Assembly: GCA_963575745.1 (NCBI GenBank)
Contig: CAUYUJ010015271.1
Span: 501,908 to 565,907, forward strand
Reading direction: 5' to 3'
Source: Prorocentrum cordatum
Lineage: Eukaryota > Sar > Dinophyceae > Prorocentrales > Prorocentraceae
DNA length: 64,000 bases
A model generated the notes under the pieces. It saw nothing but the letters and a program-made list of their open reading frames with translations. It made no database searches and was not told the DNA's origin. Positions 1,513-58,998 of this stretch are shown here, piece by piece. Position 1 is the first letter of the stretch, and every line of letters begins with the position of its first letter. The position numbers and the translations under genes were made by a program.

Positions 1513-1558
1513 TACCTTGAGACTCCAAGGTCGATCTATAGTGCGGGGTCGAACTATA
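1513..1558 (+). repeat. Left terminal inverted repeat
   Basis: Perfect 46-bp inverted match to 11102-11147. Inside it, GGTCGATCTATAGT and ACTATAGATCGACC (ending just beyond the TIR) form a 14-bp inverted repeat, so each end can itself form a hairpin. A partial CACTATAGTCCAACC copy follows at about 1586, giving subterminal repetition of the same word. Confidence 0.9.
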
Positions 1559-1793
1559 GATCGACCTGGCACTTTCCTTGGGTCGCACTATAGTCCAACC
1601 CATGATTTTTGGCCAGGTCGTACTTTTCTTCGCTCGCGCATTAATGGATCCCCTGAGTGAGGGGGCATGCGTCCCCTGAGCGAGGGGTATCGGCTGCATC
1701 ACATTGCGCGCATGTTACAACATCCCGCAGCTGCGAAGGCTCGAGGGCACATAGCGCTACTCTTGCTTGCGCGCACTGCGCGGGGGGTGGGCA

Positions 1794-3199
1794 ATGGTCA
1801 AGGGCAAGACGGAGGTGAAGATACGGGCTTCTTCTGTGACTGAGGAACAGTTGAAGCCGCTCGTGAAACAGCACATTGATCTCATCGAAAAATGCCAACT
1901 GCAAGGGGGCATAGATGACTTCATGAAGAACAACATGCCGTTTCTCTTGCCGCTTGCGCAGCTCACCACACGCGTCAAATGGAAGAACCTCCAGGATGTC
2001 GTGTTGAAGCAGAAGCCGAACATGCACCAGGAAGAGTGTAGGCGTTTCTGCCAGGAGGTGGCCAACGCTTTCAGCCATGTTTGCAACAAGTTCTACATCG
2101 CCAAGACGGGGGGGAAGCTGGAGGCGCGCGCAAAAATGCTTGGGGTGGCAATGGGGCTGCAGCCTGGCAGGGCAAGCCCAAGCACAGGAGAGAGCAAAAA
2201 ACGCGCCGACAGCAGCTCCGACATAGAGATGAACCCTCCAAAATCTTCCACGGCCGCCGCGTCGTCCAGCGCAGATGGGGGCAGCAGGCGCAATGTCATC
2301 AAGAACGCCTTCGGCATCAGCCCGCCTCCGAAACCGGCAGGGAAGAAACAGAAGGTTGCCACGTGGAGCCCGATGGTGGTGTTCTCGTCGCAGGAGGACG
2401 TCGAGCTCGCTGACCCGCCCGCCGCGGCCCCGAAGGAGGATCGGAGGGGGCGGGCAGGGTGGGAGGGGGAGGGGGGCAGTTTTGATTTTTCACGGCGTAA
2501 CCGAACCCCTTCGGGAGGGGAGCTCGGGAGGGGCAAGTGAGAGACCCGCCCCAGGATCCCCTGGCCACGTATTTCGATTTCAACTCCGAGCCGATGTGCA
2601 CGGTGATGAAGTTCGCAGACAGGGAGGAGCGGGGAACACTGACGAAAGGAGGCGATGGTTTCTTGGATGCCGTGTTTCCCGACGGCAGGACGGAGAAGAC
2701 GGAGCAGCCCAACGCCCTCCTGGCAGCAAGAGCGGCAGCCGCGCAGGCGAAGGCGAAAGCGTGCAAAAAAGGGAAGCCAGCAGGACATGTAGTGGCAAAG
2801 AAGCCTGCAATGAGAAAGCCCAGTGCAGCCGCCGCGAACACGGAGACGGACCAGGACGATGAGGGGGAGGAGGAAGAGCAGCTGGAACCCGATGAGCCCG
2901 TGGATGCTGCAGATGAGCCCTCGGTCGGCGCTGGGCCCCCCGCTGGCCACGCCGACCGCGGGTACAGCGTGATGCACTACAAGGGGGACCGCTCTATCGG
3001 GTTGAAGCGGACGCGCGGTGAGAAGAACCAGTTCGTGAGTTTCGGCGGGAAAAAGTACAAGGACACCTTGGACGAGGCCACGCTCAGGGAGATCGGCGCA
3101 GAGCCGAAGAAGGCCTTGGTCGACGGCGCCGTGGCTGACACCAAGGAAGCTGCTAAGGCGGAGGCTGGGCGCTTAGTGGCACAGCGCTTGGGCGACTAA
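1794..3199 (+). CDS. TIR-element gene 1, unknown function, two exons
   Basis: Exon 1 starts at ATG 1794 (MVKGKTEVKIRASS) and runs to about 2440-2460. Exon 2 starts at 2555 after a CCCCAG acceptor and ends at TAA 3199, giving roughly 430 residues. The N-terminal 120 residues look helical (EEQLKPLVKQHIDLIEKC). A Ser/Ala/Lys-rich linker follows, then an acidic stretch, then a C-terminal block with YKGDRSIGLKRTRGEKNQF and FGGKKYKDT. I have seen similar C-terminal blocks in unannotated dinoflagellate proteins but know no function for them. The roughly 100-bp intron carries a CCCCTTCGGGAGGGG palindrome; its donor is not obvious. A nuclear accessory protein of the element is a guess. Confidence 0.55.
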
Positions 3200-3956
3200 T
3201 CGCATCCATCCTCATCATCGCATCCATCCTCATCATCATCCTTACCGTCTTCATCGCCATTGCCATCGCCATGCCCGTTGGCAGAGCGCCCTCTCCAGTG
3301 CTAGACGACACCCCCTCATCGCAGGGGCGCCCCTCCGTGAGGGGACCGCGCGATGGATTGGCGAGTGATGGAACCCCTTAAGAGGGGGACCCCTTAAGAG
3401 GGGCTTCAGCACACTCGCGATAAGACAGGGCAACGGCCCCCTCCGAGAGGGGGCCCCTCGGGGGGGGGGATCAAAGGTGCGGCAGTCTGCTTACTCATTA
3501 TGTGTATGGCATTGCGTTTCCTCCTCGTTCCATCCCTCTCCCATTTGCGTTCATGTTCTTCATCCGCAACCGTTCGACAGAGCTGACACCCGGCGCGCTT
3601 GGGGGCCAGCCCCCCGCCCCGAGCTCGCGGCCATGCGGGCGCCCATCATGCGCCTCTCGGCGCCCCAGGCCGCGCGGAAGCAGAATGCAAGGGGGGAGTT
3701 GGGGCAGGATGAGGAGAAAAGTAAGAGCGACGGCCACTTGTTTGGCCATCTGGGCGATGAAAAATCAATCCAGCAGCCGAGTTTTAGACCCGCCTTTTTT
3801 TAAGCAAAAAAAGGGGGTCTAAAATTGGACGAATTCCTATGAAATTCCATTACATTCACCCCCCCGAAGGGCCTCCCACGAGGCCCCCAGATTTTAGCCT
3901 TTTGAGTCTGACTAAAAACTTTCGGCCGCAACCGTTCTGGACCCCAGGCTTCCGGC
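3200..3956. other. Intergenic region with palindromes and a strong hairpin
   Basis: Directly after gene 1 comes a CATCCTCATCATCG microsatellite (3200-3270), then three CCCCT..AGGGG palindromes. An imperfect hairpin at 3782-3824 pairs TTTTAGACCCGCC plus a T run with an A run plus GGGGGTCTAAAA across a 4-base loop. No gene is supported. Confidence 0.6.
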
Positions 3957-5756
3957 ATGATGATGTCGGGCGGCTGCGGCGGCGGGCTGCCTCCAGAAGG
4001 CGGTGGCGGCGGCAAGCGGCCTCACGAGGAGCTGGGGGTACAAGTGGTTAAGGCGCCCCTTCCTGAGGGGATCCGTTTACAGAGACCCCTGCCAGAGGGG
4101 ATTCATCGATAGAACCTCCCCTTCCTGAGGGGATTCATTCACAGAGACCCGTGACCCTTCCTGAAGGGATTGATTTACAGAGACACCCTGCAGGACGGGC
4201 ACGCGCCTGTCTGCGAGGCCGAGGACGACGACAGCGAGGCGGAGGAGGAATTCATGCTGGACTTCCAGGACCACAGGAAGCGGTACACCCGCTCGTCCCA
4301 CCGCTTGTGGCTTCGCAAGATGAACTGCAAGAAGTGTTGGCAGTGCGGCAAACACACCTTCTTCTCGGTGTGCGTTGGCAAGACGTGCCAGGAACACCAC
4401 GCGACCCAGTGGTTCCACGAGCACGGCGACCGCGACCGCAACGGGAGGAGGTGGAGGGGCGGCAAGAGCGAGGTCGCCAGAGCCAGGCAACGCAAGGGTG
4501 CAAGTGGTGGGGAGGGGGGAACCCTCAAACATTGAGGAATGAAGTTATGTCGGTTTGATGTTTTGATTTTCTCAATGTTTATCCTGGTCAGTTTTCTGCG
4601 CCTGCCAGGCACTGGCAGCGGAGGTGCGATACCAGGGAGGCGGTCTTGGTCGGCCTGCTGCAGGACCGCGCCCCCCCCCTCTGCCCCGCGCTGCCAAGAA
4701 GGGAGGGCCCCTGTTTGAGGGGATAAACGAGGGGGGACCGAATAAACGCAAGGAGAGGCCCCTCTCATGGGGGTGAGCTTACTTCGTTCCCCGACAGGAG
4801 CAGCAGAGCGAAACAGCAGCGCAGCCGCCGCCCCCGCAGGGGGGGCCAACGCCACCGATCGGCCCGCCACCCGCAGCACTGTTAGCAGCAGCAGCGGCTG
4901 GACCCCCCGCAGCAGCACCGCTAGCAGGAGCGCCGCCACCCGCAGCACCAGACCCGCCCGCAGCAGCAGCAGCAGCGGCAGCACCTGCCGAAGCAATGCA
5001 GGTTGACGCCTCCGACGACGGAGCCCGAGAGGGGGAGGAAGAAGAGGAGGATGAGGGCGAGGAGGAAGAGGGCATGGAGGAGGAAGCGGAGTCAGAGGAG
5101 CCTGATGAGCTGATGAGGCTAGAGGAAGAGCACGCAAGGCAGCATCGGAGGCTCTTGCGGGCATTGAATCGCACGGAGGCGGCACAGAGGCGCGTCGAAA
5201 GGCACAAAGAGCGCCTTCGGCAGGAGCAGGAGCGCAGGGCAGAGCAGGAGATCATCCGCCTGAGGCGGGCGCAACAACAGCAGAGGGGCGCCGCGCTGAG
5301 GCGGGAGGCAGAGGCCCGCCTGGAGCTGCAGAGGGCAGCAGAGGCCGCCGAAGCGCAGGCGAGGACGAGGCTGCTGGCTGCCGAAGCGGCCGCACGGAGG
5401 GCGGAAGAGGCGGCCAAGGCTGCCAAGGATGCGGAGGACGCAGCGCGGGCCAAGGAGGAAGCGGAGCAGAAACAGAAACGAGAGGCAGAGGAGCGGCAGG
5501 CGGCAGAGACGGCAGCGCCAGAAGCGGCAACACCAGAGCAGCCAGAGACGGGCGCAGCAACGGCGGACGCAGCCAGGGCGGACGCGGAGAACGCAGACAA
5601 CAAAAAGAAGGACCCCAAAGCAAAAAAAGGCCCCGCGCGGACCAGGCGGGGGGCAGACCCTCGAAAGGGGGGAGGGGCGACAAAGACAAGGACAAGGACA
5701 CTGAGAAGGACAAGGGCAATGGCAAGCGCCCGAAGGCGACCTCTAAGAGGGGCTAG
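3957..5756 (+). CDS. TIR-element gene 2: Cys-rich domain plus long coiled coil
   Basis: Predicted exons are 3957-4052 (MMMSGGCGGGLPPEGG), about 4194-4490 and 4798-5756. Intron 1 fits GC-AG at 4053-4193 in phase 0; intron 2 ends at CCGACAG before 4798, with an uncertain donor. Exon 2 has an acidic leader, then a compact Cys/His cluster (CKKCWQCGKHTFF, VCVGKTCQEHH) that could bind zinc. Exon 3 begins Pro/Ala-rich, turns strongly acidic at about 5030-5100, then forms a long Arg/Glu/Ala coiled coil (5110-5500). The frame must shift by one base near the A7 run at 5631 to reach the natural-looking Lys/Asp-rich end (DKDKDKDTEKDKGNGKRP) and TAG 5756. Without the shift the frame runs to 5904 through low-quality sequence. 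Function unknown; a DNA- or RNA-binding accessory protein is possible. Confidence 0.5.
4053..4193 (+). repeat. Intron built of 30-35-bp palindrome-bearing repeats
   Basis: The predicted GC-AG intron of gene 2 holds about four direct copies of a 30-35-bp unit. Each has CCCTTCCTGAGGGGATT or CCCCTGCCAGAGGGG followed by an AT-richer spacer and ACAGAGACCC. Repeated ACAG trinucleotides give several possible acceptors. This looks like local amplification of a palindromic intron element. Confidence 0.7.
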
Positions 5757-6084
5757 GACCGCTTCTCCATCCTCCTGGTCACTCTTCCTCCTGCTCCTGC
5801 TTGTCGCCCGCCCTCCTCCTTGTCCATCTCCCTCTTGCTTCTGCTCTTCCCCCTTGTCAATCTTCCTCCTGCACCCCCATCCGCCCCAGGGCGGCGCGCC
5901 CTGAGCCGCGGGGCGACCGCGTCGGCGACGGCGCCGACATCCATATACATTTGCGCGGCCTCTCGCGCCAGAATAGAGGCGGTACGGGTTAAGGGGACTT
6001 TGCTTGACTGCGGCCCCTGCATTGCAGGGGCGCGCGCGGCTGCCCCTGGCAGAGGGGGCGGACGATCGCGAAACCGATTATCTT
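5757..6084. other. 3' flank of gene 2
   Basis: Pyrimidine-rich CTCCTGCTC-type sequence followed by two CCCCT..AGGGG palindromes (about 6018 and 6041). No supported gene. Confidence 0.5.
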
Positions 6085-6268
6085 AAGGGGAAATTCTCTT
6101 TGGAGAATCCTCTTAAGAGAATTCTCTTAAGAGAATTCTCTTAAGAGAATTCTCCTAAGAGAATTCTCTTAAGAGAATTGTGTGGATGTCTCAGGTAAAA
6201 CCAACAATTCTCTTAAGAGAATTCTCTTAAGAGAATTCTCTTAAGAGAATTCTCTTAAGAGAATCTCT
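6085..6268. repeat. Self-complementary 14-bp tandem array, two blocks
   Basis: The unit TTAAGAGAATTCTC is repeated in two blocks (about 6085-6180 and 6206-6268), separated by about 25 unique bases. The unit contains the palindromes GAGAATTCTC and CTTAAG, so each strand can fold on itself at almost any register and the two blocks can pair with each other. A few units carry single changes (CCTAAG, TTTGGAG). Confidence 0.9.
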
Positions 6269-6378
6269 CTCAAGGTCGCTTGCAGTGCACCCCCCCTCGC
6301 TGCATGGGGGCCAGACGAGTCCCGCTGAGGGGCGAAACGCCCCTGGCTGAGGGTGGGGTGGGGGTGTGGGGGGTGGGG

Positions 6379-6643
<265 letters not shown>

Positions 6644-6649
6644 CGGGGC

Positions 6650-7260
6650 TGAACCGTATCTGACGGGCCCCCTAGGGGGGTTGGGGGGCGCGGTGTTCCT
6701 GATTGAGGGGAGCCCCTGAAACATCTTTGACGGGCCCCTTGCGGAGGGGGACCACCGTCCTTTACTGAGGGTGAGCCCCTTTAATGAGGGGGGGCAGTGT
6801 GAGCAGGGGCAGCAGGGGGGAGCAGTAGCATTGCATCATGGGTGAGTCGTTCGGGCCCCTGTGCTTGCCTGCCGCGCAAAGCAATCCAGAGAGGGGGGTG
6901 CCCCTTTTTGAGGGGACGCGCACCCCTTACTGAGGGGGAGGCCCTGGCACATCCCCTCCCCCTCCCCGCCTCGCCGCTGATGAGGTAGCACCCCTTCTCT
7001 TCGAGGGGGAGGAGGCGACCGCGTGGGTTGCGAGCCCCTTCGAGGGGAGAGAAACGAACCCCTGGCTGAGGGGACGGCTCGACGATACTGAACTGTACCA
7101 CCACGCACGCCACACCCACAGCACCACACCACACCCACACGCACCACTGAAGTGCGCGGGGAAGGCCCCCGACGATCTACTTGCCATTCGCAGGCGTTTC
7201 GGCTGCCGCAGGGCATTTCGATTTTGCTGCTGTATCCCAAATTTCAGGGGTCAGTCCCGC
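6650..7260. other. Intergenic region rich in palindromes
   Basis: At least five CCCCT..AGGGG-type hairpins occur between 6700 and 7075, followed by a CAC-rich stretch (7098-7145). No coding block is convincing until the frame leading into gene 3. Confidence 0.5.
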
Positions 7261-7333
7261 GGCAGCCATGCCCGCCCCAGGAGTAGTCCCTCCTCTGCTC
7301 CTGCTGGGCACTCTCCTCGCACCGTTGCGCAGC

Positions 7334-8608
7334 ATGGCACCGAAGAAGAAGATCGAGGGCCAGGGCGCACCAGCGGCGAAGAAGTCGAAGGCGGCCCCGA
7401 AGGGGCACGGGCTCGACAAGCAGGAGGCCGACAAGATGAGGGCGTGGCTCAAGTACCAGTCGGAGAAGAAGGACGGCAGCGGGAAACCTACGAGCACAGC
7501 AGAATCCGCCAGAGCAGCCCAGGCGCTTTGGAACGGGATGAAGGACCCAGCCGATCGGAAGCGTTTCTTGCAGACCTTCGCGAGTGACAAGGACAAGACA
7601 CTTGACTGGTTGGCCACCTTCGAAGAGAGATGCACGAATGAAGAGGTGCACGCGCGCTCTGCCAAGAAAGGGTACCGGAATGTATCGCAGGCACTGGCCC
7701 TCAAGAACCTCACCATCAAAGACTTTGCGAACATCCAGGAAGCCACTGCCTTCGCGCAGGAATGGTGGGAGGAGAACAGCGAAGAGCATGGCACCAAAGA
7801 AGAATTCCCCATCAAGGAAGATGTCAAGGACAGGCCTCTGTGGAAGGAGTGGTACTTCGTCGAGCGCAACATGGACGATGACCAGCTGGTGACGAAGGAC
7901 TCGCGCACCTTCAAGGGGACGTCCAACCTGAAGAACCTGAAGCAACTCGAAGCTGCAGGCATCAGGATGGCCGAGCTCCCGTCGTCCAGCGCTTCGGGGT
8001 CGGGTGGGGGCGGCGAGGTGAAGATCGAGAATCCGCACTGGCCAGAGATCGTGAGTAAGAAGGACGAGATCGCGCGCCGTCCTCGGCAGCCGCCCCCTGC
8101 CCTTCCATCTCTGGTGCTCTGCCAGGCCCCTCCCAGAGGGGGGCCCTCTCCCCCGCCACGCCCCCGCCGCCCCTCCTGGAGGGGATGGCGATAGAAACTG
8201 GTTCGTATCCGTTCTGTCGTGCGTTGTTTGCGTTGAAAAGCATGTCGGCGCATTGCTTGTTTATGATCCCTACCAAGGCAAATGCTGGTCAAGTATCAGA
8301 AGGAGCTGAAGTTCCTAAAGCACACGAAGAATCAGTTGCTCGCGAAGGCTGGGGATCAGGATCAGAAGGACCGTCAGAGCTTCCAGAACTGGGCCGATGA
8401 GTGCAAGAAGTGCGTGGACAATGCGGACCAGCACGAGACGGCGATGGAGGTTCTGATTGCGAAAATTGAGGGCGCTGATTCTGTCGGCAAGGACACGGAC
8501 ATGTACGATAAGCTGAAGAATGAGGTCCAGGCCGCCTACAACACACACGAGCACATGTTCGAGGGCATTCAGCTCTCGGTCAAGCGCTTCAAGAAGTTCC
8601 TCAATTGA
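7334..8608 (+). CDS. TIR-element gene 3, unknown helical protein, two exons
   Basis: The preferred start is ATG 7334 (MAPKKKIEGQGAPAAKKSK), giving a basic, nuclear-localisation-like N-terminus; an in-frame ATG at 7268 would add a hydrophobic leader. Exon 1 runs to about 8050, where GTGAGTAAG resembles a donor. Exon 2 resumes near 8278 after ACCAAG and ends at TGA 8608, for about 350 residues in total. Exon 1 is mixed helical with Trp-rich patches (AFAQEWWEENSEEH, PLWKEWYFVERN). Exon 2 is charged and helical (MLVKYQKELKFLKHTKNQ). The intron holds two CCCCT..AGGGG palindromes. No catalytic motif is visible and I do not recognise a named family. Confidence 0.55.
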
Positions 8609-8975
8609 GCTGCGGCCCTACATCTACATCTACATATCAGTATTTACATGCATATATGCAGTAGGGTTTGAGATGCTCTGCCTCGCCCGACGACACGCAT
8701 GCAGCGCTGCCTTTCCGACGCCCGTGGGAAAACGAGAACTTGCCGCTTCCCCTGCCAGGGGTGCCCCTTCGTGAGGGGCCGCATGTTTCTGGGTTTGCCA
8801 GTGAAGAAGCCCCCCTCATCGCAGGGGCGAGGGGGGAGGGGGGGGGCGGGGGGGAGGGGGGCTTGGTATCGTCAGGAGGGGAGTAGCAGGAGGGGAGGGG
8901 CATGAAAGGGACTGAAGGAGGGCGCGGAGGAGGGGCGCGGGAAAGGGCAAGGGCTCCTTGCCTCAGCCGCGCATG
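8609..8975. other. Gene 3 to gene 4 spacer
   Basis: Starts with CTACATCTACATCTACATA tandem hexamers, then two palindromes (about 8763 and 8815) and purine-rich GGGGAGG sequence (8825-8940). No gene is supported. Confidence 0.5.
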
Positions 8976-9000
8976 TCCGTAGCCACTGCATTGGCTCAAG
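8976..9000 (+). other. Spliced-leader relic upstream of gene 4
   Basis: Dinoflagellate nuclear mRNAs receive a 22-nt trans-spliced leader. Here TCCGTAGCCA and TTGGCTCAAG, the two 10-base ends of that leader, occur in the right order and strand. They are separated by CTGCA instead of TT, giving 25 bases with a small central expansion. The relic ends 39 bases before the predicted start of gene 4. Genomic leader relics are established marks of reverse-transcribed and reinserted mRNA, so gene 4 may have passed through an mRNA stage. Confidence 0.75.
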
Positions 9001-9039
9001 GCCGCCGCGCTCGCGCCTGTCTCCCGCGGGCCCCGCGGG

Positions 9040-10916
9040 ATGCTTTCCAGGCGGCGGTTGCCTTATGACAGGTTGGGCTTGCCGCCGGAGGGGCGGCTGA
9101 GAGCGAACGTGCAGGACCTGATAAGCAGCAACGTGGTCAGCGGGCAGCGCGGCGCTCAGCTGATCAATGACTGCGTCTCTGCATCTGCGACAGGTCTCTC
9201 CGACCTGCACACTGCGGAGTCAACGTCGGGCATGAAAAACGCTGCCAGGAAGTTCAGGCGGGATTTCTTCAGGAAAGGGTGGCCTCCGCTCTATCACTGC
9301 CAGGTGAGGGGCTGGGACCCCAAGTCTGAAACAGAACAACTGATGGACTTAGCGATGATGCTTCCTCACGAAATACTTCATCAACTTCATCATTTTGGCG
9401 AGCGGAGCGTGCTACTGGAGACGTCGAGTCTCGACGGCGTGTCTCTGCGCCACGTGCAAAGAGCCAGGGCGGAGAGTGGTTGCAACGACCTGGTGGCCCT
9501 GGGCGTGTGGCAGGACGGGGTCCCTTGCTTCTGGGACCGATCGATGAGCGCAGAGATCATCAGCCTCATGTTGCCAGGGGCTGCGGGGCGCTGGAAAAAC
9601 CTGCGGGCCCCAATCACAGCGTTCCTCAAAGAGCACGTGGGCCCCAACACATTTGATGATGTTTTTGCAGTGGTGCAGTGGAGCTTTGTTCACTTGGCTG
9701 CGAAGCGCTGGCCGACGGCACGGCGCGACGGCTCTCCCTTCGGCGCGCAGGACGCATGGAGGAAGCGCCGACAAGTGGCCGATGCAACCCTACCAATTGG
9801 CGGAGTGCTTTGCCAGATCAAAGGGGACTGGAAGATGATGAAGGAGGTGCTCAAGCTACCTGGCTGGCAAGATGACGAAGTATGCTTCCTGTGCAAGATC
9901 AAGAAGGACGAGGCCATGGGGGCGCAACACATCAGGGGAGGATGGAAATCCCCTCTGGGAGGGGGTGCGTCGTCGTCGTTTTGCGGCCCCTTCCAGGGGG
10001 GGTGGAGGAGGAGGAGGAGGGGTGGAGGAGGAGGGGGAGGAGGAGGAGGAGGAGGAGTGTTTTTGGCTACTCCCCGCAGGTGAAATCGCAGACTGGGAGA
10101 GACGCGCCGTGGAGAACGCACCGACGCACATGGCCAGAAGTCCTTGCGAAGATTATCGTTTCAGGCGAGCAGGTGTGCCCTCTCTTCCAAGTGCCGTATG
10201 CGAACGAAAAGTTGCTGAAGCTAGATTGGTTACACGTTGTTGATCTTGGAGTAGCGGCTGACTTCATAGGGGGCTTGATATGGCATCTTGTAACGCACAA
10301 AAAGGTGGCTGGAACTACCCAGAAAGGCCGCGTCTCCACACTACATGGTCATTTGATGGCGCTCTACGACAGGCAGCCGCCAGGTGAGAAGACCAGCCGC
10401 CTATCGAGACTGACGCGGGGCGTTGTGAAAGGAAAAAAAGCAACGACGGCTAAGATGAGGTGCGGCGCGGGGATGCTCAGGCACATGGTTCCATGGGCAT
10501 TGGAGATGGCGGAGGCTTTCCTTGATAGGAGGAATGGCGTCGACGAGCGGGCAGCTGTAGAATCGTCCATTCACGCAGGGATGAAAAGCTTATCTCGGTG
10601 TTACGAGGCACTCTCTGACAATCGCCCATTTGCTGTGGACATTCTTAGAGAGCATTCAAGTAAGTTTGCCACGCAGACGGCCGCTTTGCAAGACGCGCTT
10701 CCTGCCCATTTTAAAGTGAAGCCTAAACTGCACATGTTTTTGGAGCCGTGCATGGGCGGCGGTGAACCAGCGAAGCACTGGAACTATAGGGGTGGGGATT
10801 TCGGTGGATCTGTAGCTGCATTTGGCCGAAGGAGGGGCCAAAGGAGGTCCATGAGAGCGTTTTCAGTGGCATGCATCTCTAAGTTCTGCGGCCAGCCGAT
10901 TGTGCGCATGCTTTGA
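9040..10916 (+). CDS. TIR-element gene 4: probable DDE-type transposase
   Basis: Two exons: 9040-9921 and 10080-10916. The intron 9922-10079 fits GC-AG in phase 0 and carries palindromes and a GGA microsatellite; the product is about 572 residues. Exon 1 ends with GDWKMMKEVLKLPGW (Asp 263) followed by CFLC (Cys 282, Cys 285). Exon 2 carries LDWLHVVDLGVAADFIGG (first Asp 343) and later conserved-looking blocks (LPAHFKVKPKLHMFLEPC, HWNYRGGDFGGSVAAFG). Transposases of the CACTA/Plavaka/KDZ kind place a GD motif before a C-x2-C pair and a second Asp in a D-x-H/LH-type motif, so this layout fits. The third acidic residue is not certain. A spliced-leader relic precedes the start. The assignment rests on motif layout only. 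Confidence 0.6.
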
Positions 10917-11101
10917 AAAGAACGCTTCTGTGTGTATCGTTGTCATTCATTGCTGTCGGCTCAAATATATGTTGGACCCCTCCCAGTGGGGTGAGCGCGA
11001 GCATGGGTGCTGAAGCCCCGCTTGCCCCAAAACGGCGGGTCGAACTATTTTCGGCGCGCCCGAACTATAGATCGACCCGCAGAAAAGTATAACCCCCGCA
11101 T

Positions 11102-11147
11102 TATAGTTCGACCCCGCACTATAGATCGACCTTGGAGTCTCAAGGTA
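11102..11147 (-). repeat. Right terminal inverted repeat
   Basis: Reverse complement of 1513-1558 with no mismatch over 46 bp. A further subterminal copy of ACTATAGATCGACC lies just inside at about 11062-11077, and a partial CGAACTATTTT at about 11040. Transposase binding sites are often repeated subterminally in this way. Confidence 0.9.
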
Positions 11148-17129: not shown

Positions 17130-17955
17130 TCGCAGGGCCTCTTGGGATCCTGTTGGGGGCCCCCTGGGGACCTCTTGTGAGCTTCTTTGGGTTTCTTTTG
17201 GACTTTTTGGGGGCCTCTCCCCCCTCCCTCCTTTTCATAGTGCCTCTCCATCATCCCTTACAGCGCCGGCTCTAATAATGGGCGCCGCTGTGACCAACTT
17301 CCACATGGCTGGCGCTGCGCCGCAGTTCGCCCAGGGGGAACATAGTTTTGCGCTCCAGTCGTTGTGTGGCCTTTTGGGGGCTTCTTTGGGGCCTCTTGGA
17401 GGCTTCTCGGGGACTTCTTGGGGCTTCTTGGGGCTTCTTGGGGCCCCTTGGGGGCGTCTTGGAGGTCTCTTGGGGCCTCTTGGGGGCGTCTTGGGCCGTC
17501 TTGGGACGCTTTTTCGCCGTATCGCCCCTTCGGAGGCCATCTTGGAGGCCTCTCGCGGCCGCCTCGGGGCTCTCTTGGAGGCTCCTTGGGCCGTCTTGGG
17601 GGCCCCTTGGACTGTTTTGGGGGCCTCTTTTGGCCGTCTCGGGGCCCTTTTCGGCCGTTTTGGGGCCACCGTGGGGGCCTCTTGGGCCGTTTGTGTATCT
17701 TCTTGGAGGCTGCGTGGGCCGTCATGGTCCTCCGAGAGCCGAAAAAAGCGAGAACTTTAAAATCTTTGAAAAACCTATAGGACATCAGCAATTTTTGGAC
17801 TGTGGAGGCGCTCTTTGGTGTCCTCTTGGGGCCCTCTTGGACCGTCTTCGGGGCCTCATGGGCCCCCTTGGGACAATCTTGGGCCGTTTCGGAGCCGCCT
17901 TGGGGCCATCTTGGGCCATCTTGAGGCCCTCTTGGAGCCCCAAGAAGCCCAAGAG
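17130..17955. repeat. 10-11-bp G-rich array, copy B1
   Basis: The cleanest stretch of the family. CTTGG-like cores start at 17384, 17395, 17406, 17417, 17427, 17437, 17447, 17458, 17469, 17479, 17490 and 17500. That is 116 bp in 11 steps, or 10.55 bp per unit. A less periodic AT-rich gap lies near 17735-17800. Confidence 0.9.
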
Positions 17956-18189
17956 GCCGAATTTGCTGATTTTCGATCGGTTTTTGTATGTTTGGAACCC
18001 CGGAAGGGGGGGCGACCATCTTGGTATGGCGGTGTGGCGCGGCTCCCAGGGGGTTAGGGGGGGGGGGCATAATAATGTAACACAATACAACACGTGGCAA
18101 TTATGCAACACTTGGACACATTTGGTACGTTGCATTATGCATCCGCAGAAAACGCTGCCGCTCAGCACGTCGCTTCCGGACGTGGACTC
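17956..18189. other. Gap between the two halves of array B
   Basis: AT-richer DNA with a run of 12 G (18058-18069) and AATAATGTAACACAATACAA. No gene. Confidence 0.4.
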
Positions 18190-18960
18190 TTAGGCTTACG
18201 CCACACCGCCGACCCCTTGGGGGACTGTTGGTTGCTGCGTGTTGCTCCTGAGGGCCTCTTGGGCGAATGTTGGGGGCGTCTTGGAGCTTTTTTGATGATT
18301 ATCGAATGGCCTTCGGCACATCCCGCCACTGTGCCTGGGCTGCGGGTGCGAAGCCACTCGGATGGCAGATGGGGTCTCATGGGTGGCGTCTCGGGGGCGG
18401 TTGGGAGGCAGTTTTTTGAACCTCTTGGGTGCCTCCTGGTGGCCTTTTGGGAGCTTTTTTGGGGGCCTCTTGGAGCTCCCTGGGGGCCTGTCGGGGGCTT
18501 CTTGGGGCAACCAGGGAGCGTTTTGGGGTCGAACGATGACAATGTCCCTTCCAGTTCCCCCTCTGTGCCCCTTCTTGGGGCTGTCTTGGGGCCCCCTTGG
18601 GTAGTCTTGGTGGCTTCTGGAGCGGTCTTGGGGCCCTCTTGGGTCGTCTGGGAACCCGTCGTGGAGGCCTCTTGGGCCGCCTTGAGGCGATCTAGAAAGC
18701 TTCTTTGGCCGTCTTGGACGTTGTAAACGGACAAGAGGCGAACGTGCTAGAAATGCACGTCTTCCCAAGGGAGGGCGACGATCTTTGCTCTTTGAGGCAG
18801 ACGCCTTTGGGGGGCTTCTTAGGGCGTCTTGGGGGGCTTCTCGGGCCGTCTGGAGGCCAGCGTGAGCGTTTTGGATTGATCTGTCGGCGGCTCGTGGCCT
18901 TCTTGGACCGTCTGAAGGGCCTCTTGGAGCCCTCTTGGCTTGTTTTGGGGCCCTCTGTAT
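18190..18960. repeat. 10-11-bp G-rich array, copy B2
   Basis: Continuation of the CTTGGGGNC family, more diverged than B1, followed by the shared 3' block described at 560-690. Confidence 0.8.
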
Positions 18961-34600: not shown

Positions 34601-36970
34601 GTTGGGTCCTCGTTTTGAAGAGACGGTGCCCCGCGTCTCCTTCCTCCTCTCCTCCTCCGCCTCCTCTCCTCTCCTCTCCTCCTCTCCTCCCCTCCTCTCC
34701 TCCTCTCCTCTTCACCCACCCAGTACACCGTTTCGTGGCTCCATAGGGAGCTCCACCGAAGGCCCCAGTGCCCGCGCCCGCATGCGTCACCCACACCCAT
34801 TTCGGCACACCCCTCACACGTTTCGTGGCTCCATAGGAGCTCCACCGAAGGCCCCAGTGCCCGCGCCCGCATGCGTCACCCACACCCATTTCGGCACACC
34901 CCTCACACGTTCGTGGCTCCATAGGGAGCTCCACCGAAGGCCCCAGTGCCCGCGCCCGCATGCGTCACCCACACCCATTTCGGCACACCCCTCACACGTT
35001 TCGTGGCTCCATAGGGAGCTCCACCGAAGGCCCCAGTGCCCGCGCCCGGGAGCTCCACCGAAGGCACACCCCTCACACGTTTCGTGGCCCGGGAGCTCCA
35101 CCGAAGGCCCCAGTGCCCGCGCCCGCATGCGTCACCCACACCCATTTCGGCACACCCCTCACACGTTTCGTGGCTCCATAGGGAGCTCCACCGAAGGCCC
35201 CAGTGCCCGCGCCCGCATGCGTCACCCACACCCATTTCGGCACACCCCTCACACGTTTCGTGGCTCCATAGGGAGCTCCACCGAAGGCCCCAGTGCCCGC
35301 GCCCGCATGCGTCACCCACACCCATTTCGGCACACCCCTCACACGTTTCGTGGCTCCATCCCCAGTGCAGCGTCCCCACGTTTCGGCACCCCTCACACGT
35401 TATAGGGAGCTCCACCGAAGCCCCCAGTGCCCGCGCCGCATGCGTCACCCACACCCATTTCGGCACACCCCTCACACGTTCGTGGCTCCATAGGGAGCTC
35501 CACCGAAGGCCCCAGTGCCGGCGCCCGCATGCGTCAGCCACACCCAATTCGGCACACCCCTCACACGTTTCGTGGCTCCGGAGCTCCACCGAAGCCCCAG
35601 TGCCCGCGCCCGCATGCGTCACCCACACCATTTCGGCACACCCCTCACACGTTTCGTGGCTCCATAGGGAGCTCCACCGAAGGCCCCAGTGCCCGCGCCC
35701 GCATGCGTCGCCCACACCCATTTCGGCACACCCCTCACACGTTTCGTGGCTCCATAGGGAGCTCCACCGAAGGCCCCAGTGCCCGCGCCCGCATGCGTCA
35801 CCCACACCCATTTCGGCACACCCCTCACACGATTCGTGGCTCCATAGGGAGCTCCACCGAAGGCCCCAGTGCCCGCGCCCGCATGCGTCACCCACACCCA
35901 TTTCGGCACACCCCTCAAACGCTTCGTGGCTCCATAGGGAGCTCCACCGAAGGCCCCAGTGCCCGCGCCCGCATGCGTCACCCACACCCATTTCGGCACC
36001 ACCCCTCACACGTTTCGTGGCACCATAGGGACCCTCCACGAAGGCCCCAGCCCCGCGCCCGCATGCGTCACCACACCCATTTCGGCACACCCCTCACACG
36101 TTCGTGGCTCCATAGGGAGCTCCACCGAAGGCCCCAGTGCCCGCGCCCGCATGCGTCACCCACACCCATGGCACACCCCTCACACGTTTCGTGGCTCCAT
36201 AGGGAGCTCCGCCGAAGGCCCCAGTGCCCGCGCCCGCATGCGTCACCCACACCCATTTCGGCACACCCCTCACACGTTTCGTGGCTCCATAGGGAGCTCC
36301 ACCGAAGGCCCCAGTGCCCGCGCCCGCATGCGTCACCCACACCCATTTCGGCACACCCCTCACACGTTTCGTGGCCCCATAGGGAGCTCCACCGAAGGCC
36401 CCAGTGCCCGCGCCCGCATGCGTCAGCCACACCCATTTCGGCACACCCCTCAAACGTTTCGTGGTCCCATACGGAGCTCCACCGAAGGCCCCAGTGCCCG
36501 CGCCCGCATGCGTCAACCACACCCATATCGGCACACCCGTCACACGTTTCGTGGCCCCATAGGGAGCTCCACCGAAGGCCCCAGTGCCCGCGCCCGCATG
36601 CGTCAGCCACACCCATTTCGGCACACCCCTCAAACGTTTCGCGGTCCCATAGGGAGCTCCACCGAAGGCCCCAGTGCCCGCGCCCGCATGCGTCAGCCAC
36701 ACCCATTTCGTCAACTCCCTCACACGTTTCGTGGCTCCATAGGGAGCTCCACCGAAGGCCCCAGTGCTGCCGCCCGCCTGCGTCAGCACGCCCATCCCCT
36801 TCACACGTTTCTTGGCCCTGTAGGGAGCTCCACCGAAGGCCCCAGTGCTGCCGCCCGCCTGCGTCCTGCACGCCCATCCCCTTCACACGTTTCTTGGCCC
36901 TGTAGGGAGCCCCACCGAAATTGGTAGTGTCAACTGCGGTATTCACACCTGCACATGGTTGGGTCCTTCG
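34601..36970 (-). mobile_element. Satellite-bearing element E1 (left arm of foldback)
   Basis: Minus-strand copy of a modular element. Its outer end is GTTGGGTCCTCGTTTTGAAG (34601), followed by a CTCCTC microsatellite, TTCACCCACCCAG, about 25 tandem 90-bp units (34730-36915), and the other end GGTTGGGTCCTTCG (36957-36970). The 90-bp unit contains TTTCGTGGCTCCATAGGGAG, CTCCACCGAAGGCCCCAGTG, CGCATGCGTCACCC and TTCGGCACACCCCTCACACG. Several units are truncated (for example near 35050 and 35380). Because 90 is a multiple of 3 and the unit lacks stops, several frames stay open; I do not regard them as genes. Confidence 0.85.
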
Positions 36971-37013
36971 TCAGGCTAATTGTTTGTTTTTATGTTTTCT
37001 GGTGTGGGAATCA

Positions 37014-37167
37014 ACGAAACACTGTGTATGACAGGTTTTTTTGGTTTTCTGGTTTCTGGAGCTGGAATGCTCGCCGCGGCTTCACCCCGCCGCCCCCCCC
37101 CCCCCCCTGTTTGTCGGCACCTGAAAACCAGAAAAACCAGAAACACCTGTCATACACACCGTTTCGT
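37014..37167. repeat. 150-bp hairpin unit, copy 2, at the foldback centre
   Basis: ACGAAACACTGTGTATGACA plus GGTTTTTTTGG at the left pairs with CCAGAAACACCTG plus TCATACACACCGTTTCGT at the right. A run of C (37095-37110) lies in the loop. It separates the two inverted satellite arms. Confidence 0.8.
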
Positions 37168-37188
37168 CGATCCCAAGACCAGAAAATT

Positions 37189-39394
37189 ATCCTGGCGAAG
37201 GACCCAACCATATGCAATTGTGAACTCTGCAATTGTGAATATCTTCTCGGTGGAGCCCCCTACGGGGCCACGAAACGTACGAGGGGTGTGCCGAAATGGG
37301 TATGCGGGACGCATGCGGGCACACCCACTGGGGCCTTCGGTAGAGCTCTCTATGAGCCCAAGAAACGTGTGAGGGGCGTGCCGAAATTAGTGCGCGGGAC
37401 GCATGCGGGCACACCCACTGGGACCTTCGGCGGAGCTCCCTGTGGGGCCACGGAACGCGTGAGGGGCGTGCCGAAATGGGCGTGGCTGACGCATGCGGGC
37501 GCGGGCACTGGGGCCTTCGGCGGAGCTCCCTATGGGGCCACGAAACGTGTGAGGGGTGTGCCGAAATGGGTGTGGCTGGCGCTTGCGGGCGCGGGCACTG
37601 GGGCCCTCGGTGGAGCTCCCTATGGAGCCACGAAACGTGTGAGGGGTGTGCCGAAATGGGTGTGGGTGGCGCATGCGGGCGCGGGCACTGGGGCCTTCGG
37701 TGGAGCTCCCTATGGAGCCACGAAGCGTGTGGGGGTGTGCCGAAATGGGTGTGGGTGACGCATGCGGGCGCGGGCACTGGGGCCTTCGGTGGAGCTCCCT
37801 ATGGGGCCACGAAACGTGTGAGAGGTGTGCCGAAATGGGTGTGGGTGACGCATGTGGGCGCGGACGCTGGGGTCTTCGGCGGAGCTCCCTATGTGACCGC
37901 GAAACGTTTGAGGGGTGTGCCGAAATGGGTGTGGCTGACGCATGCGGGCGCGGGCACTTGGGCCTTCGGTGGGGCTCCGTATGCAGCCACGAAGCGTGTG
38001 AGGGGTGTGCCGAAATGGGCGTGGGTGACGCATGCGGGCGCTGGCACTGGGGCCTTCGGCGGAGCTCCCTATGGGGCCACGGAACGTGTGAGGGGTGTGC
38101 CGAAATGGGTGTGGGTGACGCATGCGGGCGCGGGCACTGGGGCCTTCGGTGGAGCTCCCTATGGAGCCACGAAACGTGTGAGGGGTGTGCCGAAATGGGT
38201 GTGGGTGACGCATGCGGGCGCGGGCACTGGGGCCTTCGGTGGAGCTCCCTATGGAGCCACGAAACGTGTGAGGGGTGTGCCGAAATGGGTGTGGGTGACG
38301 CATGCGGGCGCGGGCATTGTGCATTCGGCGGAGCTCTCTCTGAGCCACGAAACCGATGCGCGGCGCGGGCACTGGGGCCTTCGGTGGAGCTCCCTATGGA
38401 GCCACGAAACGTGTGAGGGGTGTGCCGAAATGGGTGTGGGTGACGCATGCGGGCGCGGGCACTGGGGCCTTCGGTGGAGCTCCCTATGGAGCCACGAAAC
38501 GTGTGAGGGGTGTGCCGAAATGGGTGTGGGTGACGCATGCGGGCGCGGGCACTGGGGCCTTCGGTGGAGCTCCCTATGGAGCCACGAAACGTGTGAGGGG
38601 TGTGCCGAAATGGGTGTGGGTGACGCATGCGGGCGCGGGCACTGGGGCCTTCGGTGGAGCTCCCTATGGAGCCACGAAACGTGTGAGGGGTGTGCCGAAA
38701 TGGGTGTGGGTGGCGCATGCGGCCGCGGGCACTGGGGCCTTCGGTGGAGCTCCCTATGGAGCCACGAAACGTGTGAGGGGTGTGCCGAAATGGGTGTGGG
38801 GACGCATGCGGGCGCGGGCACTGGGGCCTTCGGTGGAGCTCCCTATGGAGCCACGAAACGTGTGAGGGGTGTGCCGAAATGGGTGTGGGTGACGCATGCG
38901 GGCGCGGGCACTGGGGCCTTCGGTGGAGCTCCCTATGGAGCCACGAAACGTGTGAGGGGTGTGCCGAAATGGGTGTGGGTGACGCATGCGGGCGCGGGCA
39001 CTGGGGCCTTCGGTGGAGCTCCCTATGGAGCCACGAAACGTGTGATGTGAGGGGTGTGCCGAAATGAGTGTGGGTGACGCATGCGGGCGCGGGCACTGGG
39101 GCCTTCGGTGGAGCTCCCTATGGAGCCACGAAGCGTGTGAGGGGTGTGCCGAATTGGGCGTGGGTGACGCATGCGGGCGCGGGTACTGGGGCCTTCGGTG
39201 GAGCTCCTATGGCGTTGCGAAACGCTGTACTGGGTGGGTGAAACGCAGGGAAGAGAGGGGATGATGATGATGACGATGATGATGATGATGGTGATGATGA
39301 TGATGATGGCAGGAGGGAGGGGGCAGCGGGAGGAGGAGGAGGAGGAGGAGGAGTGAACGCGGGGCGCTGTCTCTTCAAAACGAGGACCCAACAC
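37189..39394 (+). mobile_element. Satellite-bearing element E2 (right arm of foldback)
   Basis: Plus-strand copy: starts ATCCTGGCGAAGGACCCAAC (about 37189-37208) and ATATGCAATTGTGAA, then about 23 tandem 90-bp units (37233-39220). It continues CTGTACTGGGTGGGTGAAAC, a GATGATGAT microsatellite (39258-39310) and a GGA one (39330-39353), and ends CTTCAAAACGAGGACCCAAC (39375-39394). The central units (38390-39030) are nearly identical and the outer ones diverged, the usual sign of recent unequal exchange. With E1 it forms an inverted duplication of nearly 5 kb. Confidence 0.85.
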
Positions 39395-43216: not shown

Positions 43217-43878
43217 GGGTTCACCCAGCTTAGCTAAGCTAAGCTATGCTAAGCTAAGCTTAGCTTAACTTAGCTTAGCTTAGCTTAGCTTATCTCATCT
43301 TAGCTTTGCTTAGCATAGCTTAGCATAGCTTTGCCTAGCCTAGCTTGGCTTAGCTTAGCTTATCTCATATTAGCTTAGCTTAGCTTGGCTTAGCTTGGCT
43401 TAGCTTAGCTTAGCTTAGCCGAGCCTAGCCTAGCCTAGCCTAGCTAAGCTTAGCTTAGCTTAGCCTAGCGCAGCCCAGCGCAGCATAGCGCAGCGCAGCA
43501 TTAACACAACATAGCATAGCATAGCATAGCCAAGCGTAGCATAGCATAGCATAGCATAGCTCAGCATATCATAGCATATCATACCATAGCATAGCATAGC
43601 GCAGCATAGCATAGCATAGCATAGCGTAGCATAGCATTGCTTAGCATAGCACAGCGCAGCATAGCATAGCACATCATAGTATAGCATAGCATAGCGCAGC
43701 ATAACATTTGATATTATAGCATAGCATAGCGCAGCACATCATATCATAGCATAGCATAGCGCAGCATAGCCTAGCATAGCATAGCGCAGCATAGCATAGC
43801 ATAGCATAGCATAGCGCAGCATAGCATAGCACAGCACAGCACAGCATTGCATAGCATAGCATAGCGCAGCACAGCATT
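43217..43878. repeat. 5-bp satellite that changes from TTAGC to CATAG units
   Basis: The first 250 bp are AGCTTAGCTT-type repeats (unit TTAGC, with runs of CCTAG near 43425). From about 43475 the unit becomes ATAGC, with frequent GCGCAGC interruptions roughly every 25-40 bp, and continues to 43878. The unit length stays 5 throughout. The Met/Leu/Cys/Tyr/Ala translation on the minus strand is an artefact of the repeat. Confidence 0.95.
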
Positions 43879-45369: not shown

Positions 45370-45960
45370 GGGTCAAAGTCCTCATGGATGCTTCTTGGGG
45401 CCTCTTCGGAGGGAGCCTCTGGGGAGCAGTTTCGAGGCCTCGTGGGAGTCTTATGGGGGCTTCTTGGCGGCCTCTTGGGGCTTCCTGGGCGCCTGTTGGG
45501 AGTCTTGGGAGCCTCTTGTGTGCCTCTTGGGGGTCTCTTGTGGCCTCGGCCTCTTGGTTGGTCTCTTGGGGGGCTCTGTGGGCATCCTGGGCGCCTCTTT
45601 GGGCCGAGAGCTCGACATGTCTGTTCGGGCTCCCCCTCTGGGCCCCTTCTTGGGGCCATCCTGGGGCCGTCTTGGAGGCCTCTTGGACCGTCGTAGGGCC
45701 ATATTGGGCCATTTGGGGACCCTCTAAGCCGTCTTGGAGCGATCTTGGGGCCTTTTGGGCCGTCCAGGGTGGTCGGCAGCTCGAAAAGGCTGTACTGCCA
45801 GAATCGTCCGAAAACCTTGGCAAAATCAATGACTTTTGTGTCTTCGCGGCCTCTCGAAGTCCTCTTGGAACCCTCCTGGAGCGTCTTGGGCGCTTCTTGG
45901 GCCGTCTTGGGACCAACTTGGGCCATCTTGGAACGCTATTGGCCTGAGGCCGCGGGGCGT
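45370..45960. repeat. 10-11-bp G-rich array, copy C
   Basis: Same family as 1-540 and 17130-18960. Cores at 45463, 45474, 45484, 45495, 45504, 45515, 45526 and 45537: 74 bp in 7 steps, or 10.6 bp per unit. Confidence 0.85.
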
Positions 45961-46228: not shown

Positions 46229-47155
46229 CGAAGGACCCAACCATATGCAGCTGCGAGTGCCGCATTGTGGTTACCGCTTTCGGTGGAGCTCCCAATGGGG
46301 CCACGAAGCGTGCGAGGGGTGCGCCGAAATCGGTGGAGCGGACGCATGCGGACCCTGCCACTGGAGCCTTCGGTGGAGCTCCGTATGGGGCCACGAAGCG
46401 CTGTCCTGAGTGGCGTTGACGCATGCGGACCCTGCCACTGGAGCCTTCGGTGGAGCTCCGTATGGGGCCACGAAGCACTGTCCTTGGTGGCGGTGACGCA
46501 TGCGGACCCTGCCACTGGAGCCTTCGGTGGAGCCCCGTATGGGGTCACGAAACGCTGTCCTGGGTGGCGGTGACGCATGCGGACCCTGCCACTGGAGCCT
46601 TCCGTGGAGCCCCGTATGGGGCCACGAAGCGCTGCCCTGGGTGGCGGTGACGCATGCGGGCCCTGCCGCTGGAGCCTTTGGTGGAGCTCCGTATGGGGCC
46701 ACGAAGCGCTGTCCTGGGTGACGGTGACGCATGCGGACCCTACCACTGGAGCCTTCGGTGGAGCTCCCTATGGGGCCACGAAGCGCTGTCCTGTGGCGGT
46801 GACGCATGCGGACCCTGCCACTGGAGCCTTCGGTGGAGCTCCCTATGGGGCCACGAAGCGCTGTCCTGGGTGGCGGTGACGCATGCGGACCCTACCACTG
46901 GAGCCTTCGGTGGAGCTCCCTATGGGGCCACGAAGCGCTGTCCTGTGGCGGTGACGCATGCGGACCCTGCCACTGGAGCCTTCGGTGGAGCTCCCTATGG
47001 GGCCACGAAACGCTGTCCTGGGTGGGTGAAACGCAGGGAGGTGACGAGGCGGTTGGAAGGAGGAGGGGGAGGAGGAGGAGGAGGAGGAGGAGGAGGAGGA
47101 GAGGAGAGGAGGGGGAGACGTGGGGACCGTTTCTTCAAAACGAGGACCCAACACC
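46229..47155 (+). mobile_element. Satellite-bearing element E3 (77-bp units)
   Basis: Left end CGAAGGACCCAACCATATGC (46229), then about nine tandem units of 77 bp (for example GACGCATGCGG at 46418, 46495 and 46572), with some 72-bp variants. These are followed by CTGGGTGGGTGAAACGCAGG, a GGAGGA microsatellite (47058-47105) and the right end TTCAAAACGAGGACCCAACA (47135-47154). Compared with the 90-bp unit of E1/E2 it lacks the GTGAGGGGTGTGCCG segment. Since 77 is not a multiple of 3, the unit is not under coding constraint. Confidence 0.85.
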
Positions 47156-56257: not shown

Positions 56258-57075
56258 TTGGGTCCTCGTTTTGAAGAGACGGTGCCCCGCGTGCTCCTCC
56301 TTCCTTCCTCCGCCTCCTCCTCCTCCCCCCCCTTGCTTTTGCTCTTCGCGTATCTCTGTTTCGGCGCGCCCCTCGCACGCTTCGTGGCCCCGTGGGGGCT
56401 TCCACCGAACGTCCCAATGGCGCAGCCCGCATGGCGCCGCCGCCCCAGTGTGGCACTCCTCGCACGTTTCGTGGCCCCATGTGGGAGCCCATCTAAGTAA
56501 GGCCGCCCCATTTCGGCACACCCTTCGCACGTTTCGTGGCTCCATCAGGAGCTCCATCCAAGGTCCCAGTGGCGCAGCCCGCATGGCGCCGCCGCCCCAT
56601 TTCGGCACGCCCCCCACGTGTTTCGCGGTTCCGTAGGGGGCCCCACCTCAGGTCCCAGTGGTGCAGCCCGCATGGCGCCGCCGCCCCACCTTGGCACAGC
56701 CCCCGCGCGTTTCGTGGCCCCATAGGGGCCCCCATCTAGGGCCCCTGGGGCGCAGCCCGCATGGCGCCGCCGCCCCATTTGGGCACGCCCCTCGCGCGTT
56801 TCGTGGCCCCGCAGAATGCTCAACCCAAGGTGTCAGCGGCGCCGCCCCATTATGGCACGCCCCTCACACGTGTCGCGGCCCCATAAAGGGGGCCCCATCT
56901 AGGGCCCCAGTGGCGCAGCCCGCGCGGCAGCGCCATCTCATTTTGGCGCACCCCTCGCACGTTGTGGCCCCATAGGGAGCTCCATCTAAGGTCCCGGTGG
57001 CGCAGCCCGCATGGCGGTGCCGCCCCATTTTCGAACACCCCTCACACGTTTCGTGGCCCCTCACACGTTTTGGAG
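56258..57075 (-). mobile_element. Satellite-bearing element E4 (diverged, minus orientation)
   Basis: Starts GTTGGGTCCTCGTTTTGAAG (about 56258), AGACGGTGCCCCGCGTG and a CTCC microsatellite, exactly as E1. Eight or nine diverged units follow (TTTCGTGGCCCCATAGGGG, CAGCCCGCATGGCGCCGCCG). The other end is not present; instead the array runs into a Pif1-like exon near 57075. Confidence 0.75.
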
Positions 57076-58378: not shown

Positions 58379-58640
58379 TGGCGCGCCCCTCACGCGTTTC
58401 GCGGCTCCGCATGGAGCTCCATCCAAGGTCCCAGTGGCGCAGCCCGCATGGCGCCGACGACCTGAACCAGCACGCCCCCCACGCGCTTCGTGGCCCCATA
58501 GGGGGCTCCACCTCAGGTCCCAGTGGCGCAGCCCGCATGGCGCCGCCGCCCCCATTTTTGCACACCCATCACACGTTTCGAGGCCCCGTAAGGAGCTCCA
58601 TCTAGGGTCCCAGCGGCGCAGCCCGCATAGCGCCGCCGCC
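58379..58640. repeat. Diverged E-type satellite units
   Basis: Three units with TTTCGCGGCTCCGCATGGAG, CCCAGTGGCGCAGCCCGCAT and GGCGCCGCC, as in E4. They join directly to the inverted Pif1-like exon piece. Confidence 0.7.
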
Positions 58641-58998
58641 CCATCTGGGCGAGCTCCAGCCACCAGTCGTCGCCCTCTTTCTCGCCGTTCCCCACCTCGT
58701 GGCGGCCGCAGTCCAGGATCGCGCCTGGGCGACGTCGGCCGAGGGAGCAGCGCGCCAGACAGCCGACGGCACAGGGCGAGAGTCCACGAGACCGAAAGAA
58801 CGTCTCCAAAACGTGTGAGGGGCCACGAAACGCGTGAGGGGTGTGCCAAAATGGGGCGGCGGCGCCATGCGGGCTGCGCCACTGGGACCTTGGATGGAGC
58901 CCCCTATGGGGCCACAGCGCGCGCGAGGGGTGCGGCAGGAGGGAGGCGACGGCCCTGGCCACGGAGCTGGGCTTCACCGAGTGCATCCGCGAGGCTTG
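58641..58998. pseudogene. Pif1-like exon copy 2, split by inversion
   Basis: 58655-58820 is the reverse complement of the 5' half of copy 1 (CTCCAGCCACCAGTCGTCGC through GGCGAGAGTCCACGAGACCG). 58929-58998 carries the 3' end in plus orientation (REATALATELGFTECIREA, TGA 58998). Between them lies a satellite unit (58825-58925) and the middle of the exon, including LSRAT, is missing. The exon was therefore broken and half-inverted at satellite sequence. Confidence 0.75.

Follow-up and report, generated by a model that had tools for sequence, protein, structure and literature searches.

What kind of genetic unit lies between the two identical, inverted ends found about 9.6 kb apart in the genome of the dinoflagellate Prorocentrum cordatum? 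The ends belong to a stretch of 64,000 nucleotides of contig CAUYUJ010015271.1 (this whole stretch is called the window below), in which the 46 bp at 1513-1558 recur, inverted and without a mismatch, at 11102-11147. Our analysis indicates that positions 1515-11145 are very probably one copy of a multicopy DNA transposon of the cut-and-paste type, whose fourth gene would encode a RAG1/Transib-like transposase and whose other genes would encode helpers. The unit is present in many copies with fixed ends and a 2-bp target duplication, its four genes are conserved jointly, and the stems of the hairpins dispersed through it are constrained. Coordinates of all features are listed in Table 1.

We searched a 4.13-Gb assembly (21,875 contigs) with a 121-base query spanning the left end, and obtained 40 full matches (99-100% identity, including the window) and one partial match. 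As 40 of 284 candidates were scored, the genome contains at least 40 left ends. We retrieved 20 of the other 39 left-end loci as a sample of sister copies, which together with the window copy represent family A. The element body is found in all 20 (95.6-98.2% identity over aligned stretches), which disposes of the alternative that the terminal repeat is merely a dispersed short repeat, and 17 of them have both ends, 8.9-9.5 kb apart, within the spacing of 5-15 kb that the initial annotation had proposed to search for further pairs. Among the three others, L015 and L026 are cut by runs of N, and the match of L009 stops at window position 10034. About 0.5 kb of gene 2 is absent from L015 and L022. 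Each exon other than the first of gene 2 remains intact in between 11 and 18 of the 19 copies that were aligned. Among the matches listed, 31 of the 40 left ends are accompanied, at the distance expected, by a match to gene 3 or gene 4, and four of the nine without such a listed match (L012, L022, L024, L026) carry the element body on inspection. We note that the window copy has at 6381-6648 a GT run of 233 bp and then a G run, a stretch mostly absent from most sister copies, and that L024 (reverse-complemented, 9481-10000) contains the start of another copy, oriented like the first, about 30 bases past the right end of that first copy.

The perfect 46-bp ends described in the initial annotation hold as an identity, but each consists of a 44-bp repeat and the 2 bp (TA) of a target duplication. 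The outer TA was considered as a portion of the repeat and rejected, because other copies have CA, GA or AA at that place; it belongs to the target duplication, and therefore the terminal inverted repeats proper (perfect in the window copy and in 13 of the 17 both-ended sister copies) are 44 bp long. A 22-base core of the terminal repeat has two matches in the window (up to three mismatches permitted) and none in 100 shuffles, and the 12-base motif GGTCGANCTATA found near both ends has eight matches in the window (at most one mismatch), every one within the element. Matching 2-bp duplications flank 14 of the 17 both-ended sister copies (8 CA, 5 GA and 1 AA, with TA in the window), as compared to 93 matches out of 272 when left and right flanks of different copies are paired. 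In a diverged relative, family B (described below), removing one AG from the joined flanks restores an interrupted reading frame; together with the matching flank pairs, this sets the duplication at 2 bp and the inverted repeat at 44 bp. The termini read CCTTGAG..CTCAAGG in families A and B alike. An A directly precedes the left end in 20/20 sister copies examined, partly by ascertainment (4 of the 40 full left-end matches lack this A, none of them among those 20). Inverted repeats common to the copies and a target duplication of constant length (2 bp) are the features of a cut-and-paste type transposon with terminal inverted repeats.

The same data bear on whether the copies could be a duplicated host gene cluster, with the inverted repeats being incidental. 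Two pairs of copies share flanks (L014/L028 a common flank including the left one, L012/L021 a common left flank), and on one strand of contig C13477 (121806-150701) gene 3 is matched three times at intervals of about 14 kb, possibly in tandem copies; these observations speak for a segmental duplication. The remaining left flanks differ, however, with similarity ending at the same base, and neither the 2-bp duplications in 14/17 copies nor the restored frame in family B fits such an origin. Host segmental duplication is refuted by unrelated flanks for most copies examined, and we regard it as very improbable as a general account.

Using P0002, a relative of the gene 4 protein, as a query of the genome, we found 108 matches and scored 78 loci out of 5,431 candidates, including 64 of family A and 14 that are diverged. 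Among the matches listed, 51 of the 64 family-A gene-4 loci are preceded on the same strand, at 0.9-1.3 kb, by a gene 3 match. One diverged locus is a full element, family B (contig C15248, locus L030, 850-9838), with its own 44-bp repeats (89% complementary) and with all four genes arranged in the order seen in family A. Protein identity between the two families is 57-70% for gene 1, 67% for gene 2, 64-70% for gene 3 and 79-82% for gene 4; the coiled-coil exon of gene 2 had no tblastn match in family B and was aligned at the DNA level only (57%). Synonymous divergence (dS) between A and B is 0.55-0.85, and the ratio of nonsynonymous to synonymous divergence (dN/dS, Nei-Gojobori) is 0.44 for gene 1, 0.38 for gene 3, 0.18 for gene 4, and 0.44 (cysteine) and 0.67 (coiled coil) for the two exons of gene 2. 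The joint recurrence of genes 1-4 in this diverged family bears out the earlier proposal of a mobile DNA transposon with genes travelling together. By our reading of the translation, the family B element interrupts a reverse-transcriptase-like frame (at about 850 and 9838 of L030), and the joined flanks read through.

The four same-strand spliced genes of the initial annotation are likewise supported as predicted models, by relatives at the protein level for genes 1, 3 and 4 and by the gene order in family B. The gene 1 product is a basic/acidic protein of about 429 amino acids with no Pfam match. Gene 2 has the least certain model of the four, and further upstream exons (about 3950-4040) are uncertain. 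The end of gene 3 exon 1 was set at 8085 because relatives show the exon continuing to there; it was taken to 8071 in the computations of exon intactness, polymorphism ratios (pN/pS), dN/dS, hairpin stems and repeats. Three of the four introns placed fit GC-AG (genes 2, 3 and 4) and one fits GA-AG (gene 1), all with putative splice sites. GC donors make up 51.4% of splice donors in P. cordatum CCMP1329 (PMC10666404). Searches of Pfam, NCBIfam and PDB sequences with the element proteins returned chance-level rows only, and no relatives were confirmed in viral contigs (where a search for the end pattern also gave 0 matches), prokaryote genome contigs or phage records.

Gene 4 is predicted to encode a DDE transposase with a RAG1/Transib-like RNase H fold. 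The structure model of its relative P0002 has a RAG1-like RNase H transposase fold, with two invariant aspartates in suitable strands; WxYRDE is conserved in the relatives, the glutamate region is poorly modelled and no residue-level match to RAG1 was obtained. A C(2)C motif follows the second aspartate (C280 and C283 in P0002 numbering) and is invariant in 7/7 relatives. The predicted fold and this C(2)C agree with the CMCT clade, which unites CACTA, Mirage, Chapaev, Transib, Plavaka, ESTA and RAG1. Neither gene 4 nor its relatives has a Pfam match. The presumed catalytic glutamate is lost in the window copy and kept by all 17 sister copies that reach that place. By itself the window copy is thus probably no longer catalytically active, and its movement would require transposase supplied by a sister copy. 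Recent movement, which the initial annotation had suggested, fits the copy identity of 95.6-98.2%, but the window copy itself is probably without an active transposase.

We examined six deeper loci, at which gene 4 has about 31-45% identity with P0002 or with the protein of the window copy; C14688 and C15325 represent a single family as near-copies. A gene-3 profile beats 20 shuffles at four of the six (C15391, C1847, C15325 and C5855), a profile of the first half of gene 1 finds support on the sense strand at two (C14688 and C18177), and three loci (C14688, C15325 and C1847) have on their sense strand a gene-2-like cysteine pattern that is found in none of three window controls. These loci suggest, with partial support, that the four-gene set is old.

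How does the element relate to known systems? The target duplication of Transib and RAG is 5 bp, as compared to 2 bp here; gene 4 has no sequence-level match to Transib or RAG1, and the element has three further genes, among which no RAG2-like gene was recognised. CACTA-like elements typically have subterminal repeats beside their inverted ends; the element shares these features, and the possession of several genes, with CACTA/EnSpm. It could thus be read as an ordinary CACTA/EnSpm element carrying captured host gene fragments as passengers, with which the C(2)C after the second aspartate also agrees, as does a 2-bp duplication, the wider clade ranging over 2-5 bp (PMC12730594). We consider this improbable, since the ends are CCTTGAG..CTCAAGG and not CACTA (no CAC..GTG termini), the duplication is 2 bp and not 3 bp, and there is no match to Tnp2 or any other Pfam family. 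Between families A and B the extra genes retain 57-70% protein identity and have dN/dS values below 1, and gene-3-like frames are found at 4/6 deeper loci; passengers would not persist with such conservation and recurrence. CACTA proper and Plavaka were dropped on the termini, and membership of the element in either is not established. Plavaka and ESTA (CMCT clade) resemble the element in their 2-bp duplications: PMC12730594 gives 2 bp for PlavakaA and TA for ESTA, whose transposase was discovered via its likeness to RAG1. PlavakaA ends in TGT..ACA and PlavakaB in CATCA..TGATG, unlike the element here, in which no TET/JBP gene was recognised and gene 4 has no Pfam match. Nor are several genes by themselves a novelty, since giant multi-gene EnSpm elements with accessory genes are already described in red and brown algae (PMC12477816); those have variable cargo, whereas the element here has a conserved gene set and dispersed hairpins. 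No description of the element was recognised in titles and abstract openings of the literature, a scope mostly outside subscription journals. It is a genuine four-gene transposon family that multiplied recently, and we leave it without assignment to a named family.

Several results weigh against the reading of a RAG1/Transib-like transposon with three helper genes. The fold model is that of a relative 39% identical to the gene 4 protein (P0002), with a predicted template modelling score (pTM) of 0.66, and the region of its presumed catalytic glutamate (506-532) has predicted local distance difference test (pLDDT) values below 50. Sequence profiles link gene 4 neither to RAG1 nor to any transposase in the PDB, and the H(3-4)H of the CMCT clade was not seen by eye in the alignment of relatives, which has one conserved H before the glutamate motif. 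The exon-intron models depend on putative splice sites, and flanks are unmatched in 3/17 copies (L012, L016 and L022). Within family A, pN/pS is 0.72-1.6, so recent copies show no sign of selection, and between families conservation is weakest in the gene 2 coiled-coil exon (dN/dS 0.67). At the deeper loci, the second half of gene 1 is supported at 0/6, its first half beat shuffles narrowly at C15391 on the antisense strand, a profile of the gene 2 cysteine exon found nothing, and the gene-2-like cysteine pattern also occurs on the antisense strand, mostly in low-complexity frames. Hairpins, finally, are nearly absent there (3 in nine stretches).

These hairpins (CCCCTNNNNGAGGGG and variants, with a 15-nucleotide version CCCCUNNNNGAGGGG) are, as a conserved, strand-oriented signal, what is new about the element. 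The window contains 28, all within the element and none in the remaining 54 kb, as compared to Markov-model expectations of 0.2-1.7 in the element and 1.4-2.0 in the rest of the window; sister copies have 22-31 each. Exons account for 56% of the element, yet no hairpin starts in one; 9 of the 10 non-coding segments contain hairpins, and the tenth, the 3' trailer, offers only a near match (at 10977). The last base of a five-base loop is G in 18/18 cases in the window element and 13/14 in family B, so that the hairpin is oriented like the genes. This fixed orientation favours a role at the RNA level (phage boxB RNA is of similar size), although a palindromic hairpin would also suit a DNA-binding dimer.

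The hairpins might instead be a compositional or mutational by-product (slippage of G/C tracts, or a tiny selfish repeat) with no function for the element. They are confined to non-coding parts of an element rich in simple repeats, and 13 of 28 have no aligned partner in family B (15 have one), so about half turn over between the families. On the other hand, stems are 88.7% identical between A and B (239 columns), as compared to 51.7% for loop positions 1-4, 61.8% for other non-coding columns and 64.3% for other CCCC/GGGG tracts, and the loops have a fixed orientation. Within family A, 4.6% of stem columns vary as compared to 10.6% of other non-coding columns; loops vary at 5.0%, so the within-family data do not tell stem from loop. 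We take a by-product to be a substantial possibility, short of probable. With similar reserve, we propose that the hairpins are putative targets of a protein encoded by the element, which is the least certain step of our model.

From the sequences we infer catalysis by gene 4, cut-and-paste movement and helper roles of genes 1-3, as follows. The gene 4 transposase would bind the 44-bp ends and the subterminal repeats, excise the element and insert it at cuts staggered by 2 bp. As helpers encoded by the element, genes 1-3 would have been inherited alongside the transposase since before the split of families A and B. One helper protein may have the hairpins as its target sites, on nascent RNA or on DNA, and this recognition could sustain expression of the element or processing of its long transcript. 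A fuller version, which we hold as rather doubtful, is that a lineage not described before, with the RAG1 fold and this conserved four-gene layout, has its own protein read CCCCUNNNNGAGGGG where it lies in introns and spacers of the transcript; this would be an RNA-marking system that would secure expression or processing and aid the avoidance of silencing. The anti-silencing VANDAL/VANC system of Arabidopsis (PMC5735166) also combines accessory genes with a short motif repeated in non-coding parts; the motif here is palindromic with a fixed orientation to the genes, the transposase is unrelated and the binding protein is putative.

If the predicted fold holds, the element would add a distant multi-gene branch to the group of transposon folds behind the antibody-gene recombinase, in a host lineage (dinoflagellates) whose mobile elements are thinly catalogued. 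With many near-identical copies in a culturable alga, movement is testable, and the oriented, conserved hairpins are an unexplained signal that could reveal control of transposon transcripts or escape from silencing.

Table 1. Features of the transposon copy in the window (positions of the window; introns and exon limits are predictions)
Feature	Position	Strand	Remarks
Target duplication TA, left copy	1513..1514	none	same as 11146-11147; CA, GA or AA in other copies
Left 44-bp terminal inverted repeat	1515..1558	+	boundary common to sister copies
Left subterminal repeats GGTCGANCTATA	1529, 1547, 1555 (minus strand), 1581 (span 1529..1592)		overlapping inverted repeat
28 hairpins CCCCT-N(3-8)-AGGGG	1650..9999 (last start 9987)	+	element non-coding parts
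Gene 1 exon 1	1794..2438	+	relatives P0020, P0021; family B
Gene 1 exon 2	2555..3199	+	predicted; putative intron 2439-2554, GA-AG, hairpin at 2506; family B
Gene 2 cysteine exon	4194..4499	+	C-x2-C-x11-C-x4-C; 67% identity to family B
Gene 2 acidic coiled-coil exon, basic tail	4798..5756	+	open frame; frame near end uncertain; putative intron 4500-4797, GC-AG
Palindromic CTCTTAAGAG array	6092..6274		gene 2-gene 3 spacer; found in family B too
Gene 3 exon 1	7268..8085	+	relatives P0008-P0019; family B; no Pfam match
Gene 3 exon 2, coiled coil	8278..8608	+	family B 64%; putative intron 8086-8277, GC-AG
Gene 4 exon 1	9040..9912	+	two invariant aspartates and C(2)C; relatives P0001-P0007; P0002 model
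Gene 4 exon 2	10080..10916	+	putative intron 9913-10079, GC-AG; WxYRDEDFGG in relatives, WNYRGGDFGG in window copy
Right subterminal repeats GGTCGANCTATA	11038, 11066, 11102, 11120 (span 11038..11131)		same motif as near the left end
Right 44-bp terminal inverted repeat	11102..11145	-	inverted match of 1515-1558
Target duplication TA, right copy	11146..11147	none	same as 1513-1514

Other repeats in the window include arrays of a 77-90-bp unit (CGTTTCGTGGCTCCATAGGGAGCTCC...) at 34729-39212, 46341-47025, 56439-57060 and 58384-58644, with two large blocks (34.7-36.9 and 37.2-39.2 kb) that are mutually inverted. Degenerate 11-bp GGCCTCTTGGG arrays are found at three places (1-400, 17368-18851 and 45436-45931), and at 43227-43877 a 5-base unit (AGCTT/TAGCA) is repeated in a long array that is about 80% regular.

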